NCBI RefSeq assembly: GCF_006385135.1
Contig: NZ_CP041025.1
Span: forward strand, 1,953,501 to 2,017,500
Length of the DNA stretch: 64,000 nucleotides
Origin: Paremcibacter congregatus
Lineage (GTDB): Bacteria; Pseudomonadota; Alphaproteobacteria; Sphingomonadales; Emcibacteraceae
Direction of reading: 5' to 3'
The position numbers and the translations under genes were made by a program. The notes beneath the pieces are model-generated. The model was not told the DNA's origin and made no database searches. It was given only the letters and a program-made list of their open reading frames with translations. This document shows positions 30,135 through 32,053 of the stretch, one piece after another (the first letter of the stretch is position 1; each line of letters begins with the position of its first letter).

Positions 30135-31106
30135 TTAAAAGTGGCGAAATCCCTGATCGTCGGATAACAGGTTATCACCCGTCTCATTCCATATTGCAAT
30201 TTCCGGTGCCGCCGTCATCTGACCAATGCGTGTCAGGGGGAGCGACATATCCCGGGCCAAAGATTGTATCTGGTCTCTGTCTTGCACCGGGGCGGTAAAA
30301 AGCAGTTCATAATCATCGCCGCCATTCCATATCAGCTTTTTATAACGCGGGAAGCTTTCTAAAATCTTACCAGCCTCAGAGGAAACCGGTAATAATTCAG
30401 CTTTCATTGACGCCCCCAGACCGGACAGCTGGCAAATATGACGAATATCACCCGCAAGGCCATCAGAAATATCCATGGTTGCCGAGACCAGACCAAATAA
30501 TTTCTGACCCAGTTCCAGCCGCGGCTGCGGCAGATGATACCGATTAATCAAGTAATCATTATCCGGTGTAATTTCATGGCGCAGAAACTTCAGCCCCAAA
30601 GCGCTATCGCCAAGGGTGCCCGAAACATATATGTCGTCTCCGGCCTTAGCCCCGTTTCGACGCAGAGCCCGACCCGGCGTCACGGCCCCCACGGCGGTGA
30701 TGGACAAAGTCAGGGGCCCCGTCGTTGATACGGTGTCTCCCCCAAGCAACCGGCAGCCAAAGAGCGCCTGATCTTCCGCCAGACCACGAACGAACTGTTT
30801 CACCCACGCTTCCCGGGCCGTCATCTGTTGAGGTAGTGCCAGCGCCAGAAGATAACCAATAGGAGACGCGCCCATTGCCGCCAGATCCGAAAGATTGACC
30901 CGCAGAGCTTTTTGAGCGATCAGATGCGCAGGATCATGGGAGAGAAAATGCACGTCCGCCACTAGGGCATCCTTGGTGAAAACCAAGGCCTGTCCCTCGG
31001 GCGGCGTCAATACAGCAGCATCATCGGTCAGCCCGAAAGCCGGGCTGTGCTTTTCCGCCAAAGGCGCAAAATAATGAGCTATGAGGTCAAATTCGCTCTC
31101 GTGAAT
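30135..31106 (-). CDS. thiL: Thiamine-monophosphate kinase, apparent ATT start
   Basis: Phosphorylates thiamine monophosphate to thiamine diphosphate. About 323 residues with the PurM/ThiL fold: EFDLIAHYFAPLA, GLTDDAAVL, FTKDALVADVHFL, LSDLAAMGASP and MDISDGLAGDI. The start is unusual. A consensus AAGGAGG lies at 31119-31113, six bases before an in-frame ATT at 31106, which gives the usual short ThiL N-terminus. The only nearby conventional start, TTG at 31124, lies upstream of that ribosome site, four bases after the nusB stop, and has none of its own. I therefore favour ATT. Confidence 0.9.
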   Translation of the reverse strand: MHESEFDLIAHYFAPLAEKHSPAFGLTDDAAVLTPPEGQALVFTKDALVADVHFLSHDPAHLIAQKALRVNLSDLAAMGASPIGYLLALALPQQMTAREAWVKQFVRGLAEDQALFGCRLLGGDTVSTTGPLTLSITAVGAVTPGRALRRNGAKAGDDIYVSGTLGDSALGLKFLRHEITPDNDYLINRYHLPQPRLELGQKLFGLVSATMDISDGLAGDIRHICQLSGLGASMKAELLPVSSEAGKILESFPRYKKLIWNGGDDYELLFTAPVQDRDQIQSLARDMSLPLTRIGQMTAAPEIAIWNETGDNLLSDDQGFRHF

Positions 31107-31127
31107 TGTCTTCCTCCTTATCAAGGG

Positions 31128-31610
31128 TTAGCGGCGGATAATTTTCGCCAGCTTGTCGAGTACGCCGTTCACAAATCCCGGCTTGCTGTCATCGAAAAAG
31201 GCTTTCGCCACATCAACATATTCATTAATGATCACTGATGTTGGGACATCAGGTCGGGCCATCAATTCATAAACACCGGCCCGCAGAATGCCGCGCGCCA
31301 CGGGTTCAACCCGTTCCAGAGTCCAGTTTTCGGACAGGGAACTGACGATATGAGCATCAATCTCTTCCAGACGGGCTTCAACACCTTTAACCAGATCAGC
31401 AAAAAAAGCTGTGTCGGCAGAAGCATATTCGTCGCCTTCTATGACCATACCCAGGCGGTGATCCATAAACTCCTCAATCACACTGCGGGCGAAAACGTCA
31501 TTCATTTCCATCTGGTACAATGCCTGTACCGCGCCAAGACGCGACGCACTGCGGGTGCCTGCTGTTTTTTTAGAGGCGGATTTTTGTGAAGACGGGGCCT
31601 TGTCGGTCAT
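31128..31610 (-). CDS. nusB: Transcription antitermination factor NusB
   Basis: RNA-binding protein of the rRNA antitermination complex. 160 residues of all-helical fold: GAVQALYQMEMND, FFADLVKGVEARLEEID, LERVEPVARGILRAGVYELM and VIINEYVDVAKAFFDDSKPGFVNGVLD. The ATG at 31610 shares one base with the ribH stop (TAATG). ribH-nusB-thiL is a conserved order. Confidence 0.95.
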   Translation of the reverse strand: MTDKAPSSQKSASKKTAGTRSASRLGAVQALYQMEMNDVFARSVIEEFMDHRLGMVIEGDEYASADTAFFADLVKGVEARLEEIDAHIVSSLSENWTLERVEPVARGILRAGVYELMARPDVPTSVIINEYVDVAKAFFDDSKPGFVNGVLDKLAKIIRR

Positions 31611-32053
31611 TATGTGGTCAGTCCAAATTTCTGTTTTAATTCGATCATCCGAAGTGCGACTTCTGCAACAAAGCCCCCTTTGTTTCCTTTGTCTACCGAT
31701 GCCCGCGCCCATGCCTGATCACGATTCTCCACGGTCAATACACCGTAACCTATGGCGAGTCTATCTTTGATTGCCAATTCCTGCAAACCGCGGGCACTTT
31801 CACCACACACATAATCATAATGTGACGTTTCACCACGGATCACACATCCCAGTCCAATATAGCCGTCAAACACCTGATCGGAATCTTCTGCAAAGCGTAT
31901 TGCGGCGGGAATCTCAAATGCGCCCGGGACATCCAGACGTTCATATGTCGCGCCCGCCTCTTCCAGAACCGCAACAGCTCCCTTAATCAATTCTTCGGTG
32001 ATATCCTTGTAGTAAGGCGATTCCACAATCAAAATATGCAGAGGTTTAGGCAT
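31610..32053 (-). CDS. ribH: 6,7-dimethyl-8-ribityllumazine synthase
   Basis: Penultimate riboflavin enzyme, condensing the ribityl-pyrimidine with 3,4-dihydroxy-2-butanone 4-phosphate. 147 residues: VPGAFEIPAAIRFAE, GYIGLGCVIRGETSHYDYV and AIGYGVLTVEN are the active-site blocks. AGGATA precedes the ATG. It follows ribBA by 25 bases. Confidence 0.96.
   Translation of the reverse strand: MPKPLHILIVESPYYKDITEELIKGAVAVLEEAGATYERLDVPGAFEIPAAIRFAEDSDQVFDGYIGLGCVIRGETSHYDYVCGESARGLQELAIKDRLAIGYGVLTVENRDQAWARASVDKGNKGGFVAEVALRMIELKQKFGLTT

Follow-up and report, generated by a model that had tools for sequence, protein, structure and literature searches.

An ATT codon as the probable start of thiL in an alphaproteobacterium, and the recurrence of weak thiL starts in its family

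Few non-canonical start codons of bacteria have been characterised by experiment, according to the part of a published account drawn on here (PMC5472188). In that part, infC starts at ATT in E. coli and at ATC in Streptomyces, and sigR of Streptomyces starts at GTC behind an extended AGGAGG ribosome site, is repressed by IF3 and has been misannotated to an upstream canonical codon. According to the portion used of PMC11497404, CUG gives less stable initiation complexes than AUG, GUG or UUG. A published reconstruction, likewise used in part (PMC5622118), counts one change from AUG to AUU and two from AUG to CUG in 61,358, so an ATT start is rare a priori. Among the literature matches listed, judged by title, none reports an unusual or non-canonical start of thiL, which is weak evidence of absence, the listing covering part of the matches and most subscription papers lying outside the scope of such a search. 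A Campylobacter paper that matched thiL concerns a small ORF within that gene.

Caulobacter is an alphaproteobacterium and belongs to the same class as the bacterium considered here. Ribosome profiling in Caulobacter assigned 0.7% of starts to CTG and 0.25% to other near-cognate codons (PMC4117421, in the part drawn on), so that such starts are real in a bacterium of this class. The likeness to the present case lies in the rarity of the starts, there measured by ribosome profiling. The Caulobacter tally differs in that it describes one genome, and in the part drawn on it includes neither conservation across species nor thiL.

In the window, the whole 64-kb stretch of DNA that was analysed, thiL (thiamine-phosphate kinase) occupies positions 30135..31106 of the minus strand when read from the proposed start codon ATT (31104..31106) to its stop, which gives 323 residues. 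The gene is identified by NCBIfam TIGR01379 with 314.8 bits, above the curated cut-off of 184.15. The gene upstream, on the same strand, is nusB (31128..31610; NCBIfam TIGR01951, 140.5 bits against a cut-off of 88.35), whose start at 31610 is the analyst's choice, the mechanical ORF extending to an ATG at 31712. The nusB stop is in frame with ATT and precedes it by 21 nt. Read along the minus strand, the junction consists of the nusB stop TAA (31130-31128), CCC, TTG (31124-31122), ATA AGG AGG AAG ACA and ATT (31106-31104), and the codons that follow, CAC GAG AGC GAA TTT GAC CTC ATA, are the beginning of the conserved ThiL core. The TTG (31122..31124), here rejected as an alternative start, had been placed four bases after the nusB stop; it does lie just behind that stop, but three bases intervene and the codon begins at the fourth.

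The original prediction read the AAGGAGG at 31113..31119 of the minus strand as the ribosome site of thiL. The motif is present at this place inside the thiL frame, and ATT 31106 follows it in frame and at a fitting distance, with six bases (31112-31107) between them. The 15 bases after AAGGAGG, read directly from the sequence, contain no ATG, GTG or TTG in any of the frames, and the site is properly spaced from ATT 31106 and from no canonical codon. The sequence before ATT has an energy of -11.1 kcal/mol for pairing with the 16S rRNA tail and that before TTG 31124 one of +1.9 kcal/mol, which agrees with the earlier claim that the TTG lacks a ribosome site. An 18-base sequence of the 16S rRNA tail able to pair with AAGGAGG is found at one place in this genome. 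Predicted pairing within 201 nt partly covers the thiL ribosome site, with an unpaired probability of 0.39 for AAGGAGG and 0.44 for ATT. The motif by itself was dropped as an argument, since it is found six times in the 64-kb window against 6.85 expected, a frequency no higher than chance; the case consequently rests on the position of the motif and on the relatives. For one given codon, an AAGGAGG on the correct strand would end by chance inside a set 5-base span ahead of it with a probability of about 3 in 10,000. Counted from ATT, the ThiL N-terminus has the normal short length that had been claimed for it, because the TIGR01379 alignment begins at residue 5, corresponding to model position 2.

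The family-wide search yielded 32 of the 60 genomes asked for, the window's included, with one thiL each in 28. The N-terminus was readable in 27 of these, window included, leaving 26 relatives for comparison. Left out of the family counts were G012 (only the end of thiL shown), four genomes of 53-69% completeness with no thiL match (G001, G009, G015 and G030), and 20 loci (L005-L024), namely L022, from the same genome as L026, and 19 records that are more distant. The start codon was read four codons before the EFD core, with L043 moved one codon by hand. At this aligned position, where the window has the non-canonical ATT in place of ATG, GTG or TTG, the 26 relatives have CTG 13 times, ATG nine times, and GTG and TTG twice each. 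In 25 of them one of these four codons stands at exactly the aligned codon, and in L043 the ATG is one codon nearer the core. Comparison of the relatives thus establishes, at the level of aligned sequence, the position of the predicted thiL start. Among the 26 family relatives, a search for a conserved ATG ahead of the ribosome site found none.

A codon other than ATG is the start in 17 of the 26 relatives. The 11 relatives in the window's genus have ATG (7), CTG (2), GTG (1) and TTG (1), and the 12 genomes of a sister genus, g5, have CTG in 11 and TTG in one. Non-canonical starts among the relatives are therefore CTG, in 11/12 g5 and 2/11 same-genus genomes. ATT is confined to a single genome, whose nearest relatives have ATG, GTG, TTG or CTG. 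On the thiL tree of the family there are at least eight changes of start codon, and at least five switches between the canonical and the non-canonical state; the tree is unrooted, with 10 of its 24 inner branches well supported, and so gives the changes no direction. By this comparison the recurrence of a weak thiL start in the family is established. In L034 and L035 the start region has two candidate in-frame ATG codons with one codon between them (ATG CAA ATG).

A ribosome site of -5 kcal/mol or better precedes the thiL start in 21 of the 27 family genes. The six weaker sites (above -5 kcal/mol) belong to L043 and to five CTG genes (L040, L042, L045, L050 and L051), so compensation by the ribosome site is not general in the family. 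Stronger sites before CTG than before ATG, GTG or TTG were tested for in the family and not found (p 0.64). The distance from the nusB stop to the thiL start ranges from -4 to 91 nt across the 27 family genomes and from -4 to 29 nt in 24 of them, and the two genes share a frame in 16 and differ in 11. The stretch before the aligned start is thus variable in length and frame among relatives and is not conserved, which argues that the extension made by a TTG start is not a conserved coding stretch, and that a NusB-ThiL fusion is not family-wide. In L050 the thiL CTG and the nusB stop TGA share bases in the sequence CTGA, a CTG version of the ATGA stop-start overlap.

Judged from its sequence context, CTG in thiL of this family is a start and not a misjudged codon. 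In ten of the 13 CTG genes the reading frame from the preceding stop as far as the conserved glutamate contains no ATG, GTG or TTG, and in seven of these ten (L040, L041, L042, L044, L045, L047 and L050) that stop is a single codon before CTG. A possible alternative TTG start lies near CTG in the other three, two codons after it in L046, and two and five codons before it in L049 and L051, respectively; L049 also has an ATG and a GTG 18 and 17 codons before CTG. Within g5, eight of the 11 CTG-start genes have no canonical alternative. The 12 g5 genes are 32% identical at the third bases of four-fold degenerate codons (5,571 comparisons) and their proteins are 57% identical. In the bodies of these genes 11.7% of leucine codons are CTG, yet CTG is the start in 11 of the 12.

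The neighbourhood of thiL served as a control, using 20 stretches of 15-20 kb from 20 family genomes together with the window. ORFs were taken if conserved (homologues in at least five other sources) and non-overlapping, and were scored as having no canonical start when the interval between the preceding stop and the sixth codon after the homology start held no canonical codon. Ten of 379 conserved ORFs were so scored. Nine are thiL and one is the L136 ORF, which is taken for glyA's antisense shadow, truncated where the contig stops, because of where it lies and because it resembles a plus-strand ORF. A canonical start is thus missing in 9/21 thiL versus 1/358 other conserved ORFs (Fisher p 7e-12, a rough value as related genomes are not independent). 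The name filter found 20 thiL; 21 were used on the assumption that the missed one is L135, with its long open stretch upstream. TTG 31124 counts as a canonical codon and so keeps the window's thiL out of these nine. Within the neighbourhood, this comparison of ORFs establishes specificity for thiL. A looser form of the control, which flagged 120 of 513 conserved ORFs, many of them antisense ORFs or genes such as fabH, was rejected; alignments of genes such as fabH run a few residues past the ATG, and the slack of six codons was adopted for that reason.

Outside the family, 83 thiL loci were compared (from 43 of the 163 other-family and 40 of the 110 other-order genomes that had a match), a sample that was not random but mostly made up of better-scoring matches. 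One could not be judged because its alignment started too far in. In all 82 others a canonical codon stands no more than 20 codons ahead of the core, so that thiL lacking a canonical start numbers 0/82 judged loci outside the family versus 10/27 within it (p 2e-7, again rough because related genomes are not independent). Alignment was used for this reading in place of a motif that missed 26 of the 83 loci and whose sole non-canonical row (L094) was a wrong match. The nearest canonical codon is ATG in 53, GTG in 19 and TTG in 10 of the 82. GTG or TTG is thus nearest upstream of the core in 29/82, and weak starts may be common for thiL beyond the family.

The infC gene of the same family reads ATA just before (A/V/T)(K/R)(R/K)P in 29 of 30 loci. 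A motif leaving the start codon unspecified picked up 22 of these (all ATA) and one that names ATA seven more, both replacing an earlier motif that matched 1/30 loci. L082 was matched by neither, and the ATA of L054 in the ATA-naming set is a wrong upstream one, the right one coming from the other motif. A ribosome site lies 4-7 bases upstream of ATA in the 27 rightly placed rows of the ATA-naming set. In L069, L071 and L075 the in-frame ATG five codons downstream is absent, which leaves ATA as the candidate infC start. In the window's own genome (L067, just upstream of G000:C1:376,828, minus strand) infC has AGGAGG and ATA. Because infC reads ATA with a ribosome site, cells of this family probably initiate at AT-non-G codons.

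The thiL start resembles infC in having a non-canonical codon behind a ribosome site; in the window's genome the AGGAGG and ATA of infC are much like the AAGGAGG and ATT of thiL. It differs in that the infC start serves autoregulation by IF3, whereas thiL is a vitamin B1 enzyme gene with no such loop of its own. With sigR, as described in the part of PMC5472188 drawn on, thiL shares a non-canonical start outside infC, an extended AGGAGG site, and a canonical codon a short way upstream by which annotation is led astray. The non-canonical sigR start is well conserved in its genus, whereas the thiL codon varies within the family between CTG, ATT and canonical codons. The IF3 dependence of sigR and its need for a weak start were shown by experiment (PMC5472188, same part); for thiL both would follow by inference. 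On this comparison of sequences, thiL would so belong with lineage-kept weak starts such as those of infC and Streptomyces sigR.

The reading favoured here, with good though not complete confidence, is that ThiL translation starts at ATT 31106 and that the start is kept weak, thiL of the family recurrently having an inefficient start. Translation might instead begin at TTG 31124, which is what mechanical ORF calling picks, adding six residues (MIRRKT) before the isoleucine and making AAGGAGG merely coding. No other ATG, GTG or TTG occurs from the nusB stop to the conserved core, and this TTG stands just after the stop, where re-initiation is possible. Its want of a ribosome site (+1.9 kcal/mol) and the absence of any counterpart to the extra residues in relatives, whose sequence here differs in length and frame, make such a start very improbable; it would also leave the placing of AAGGAGG before the aligned start to the chance of about 3 in 10,000 given above. 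A NusB-ThiL fusion made in addition by read-through of the nusB stop has a next to negligible probability. The in-frame gap of 21 nt would allow it, and 16/27 family members are in frame against nine expected by chance, with shared descent contributing, but the genes are out of frame in the other 11, and thiL would not need a ribosome site of its own if it were made as a fusion. It is also improbable that the true base is G and that ATT reflects a sequencing or assembly error. ATG is one base from ATT and is used by 7/11 same-genus relatives, but the genome is a single contig of 4.19 Mb, substitution errors are rare in such single-contig assemblies, and starts other than ATG in 17/26 family relatives make a weak start no surprise.

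A different question is whether an ATT start has any regulatory meaning. ThiL may be needed in such tiny amounts that weak starts drift in and are tolerated, a reading that is possible though on balance doubtful. It fits with the changes of start codon on the family tree, eight at the least, and with the 29/82 thiL outside the family whose nearest canonical codon is GTG or TTG. Drift would not be expected to leave CTG in 11/12 g5 genomes whose synonymous sites are saturated, since single changes lead to better starts (ATG, GTG, TTG); it explains g5 poorly, though this argument bears less on the single ATT. The CTG that many relatives have at the spot where the window has ATT suggests that a weak start is being kept for thiL. 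Against an obligatory weak start stand the restriction of ATT to one genome and the ATG found in 9/26 relatives.

If thiL does start at ATT, initiator tRNA would pair with two of the three bases only, and the near-perfect AAGGAGG six bases upstream may hold the 30S subunit over the poor start and so make up for the weak pairing. The weak start would give a low initiation rate, keeping the kinase low relative to its neighbours, and such a low yield may itself be a selected property. Ribosomes just finishing nusB perhaps supply some of the initiation on thiL, which would couple the gene to nusB translation. A weak start would on this account recur as CTG in most of the sister genus and in two genomes of the window's genus, and as ATT here. 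IF3 discriminates against codons of this kind, and sensitivity of thiL to IF3 is a fair expectation, not a result, because IF3 represses sigR with its GTC start. That thiL stands beside infC as an IF3-governed gene, its CTG or ATT kept by selection, is a speculative proposal and rather unlikely. Were it true, thiamine pyrophosphate synthesis would, in its last step, be tied along with infC to how faithfully the ribosome initiates. For annotation, a gene finder that accepts ATG, GTG and TTG alone would put the thiL start in the wrong place, or miss it, in the ten genomes that have no such codon. A metabolic gene that keeps a non-canonical start across a genus would be a clean comparative system in which to ask why selection holds a start weak, and the same system would serve to ask whether IF3 reaches beyond its own gene.
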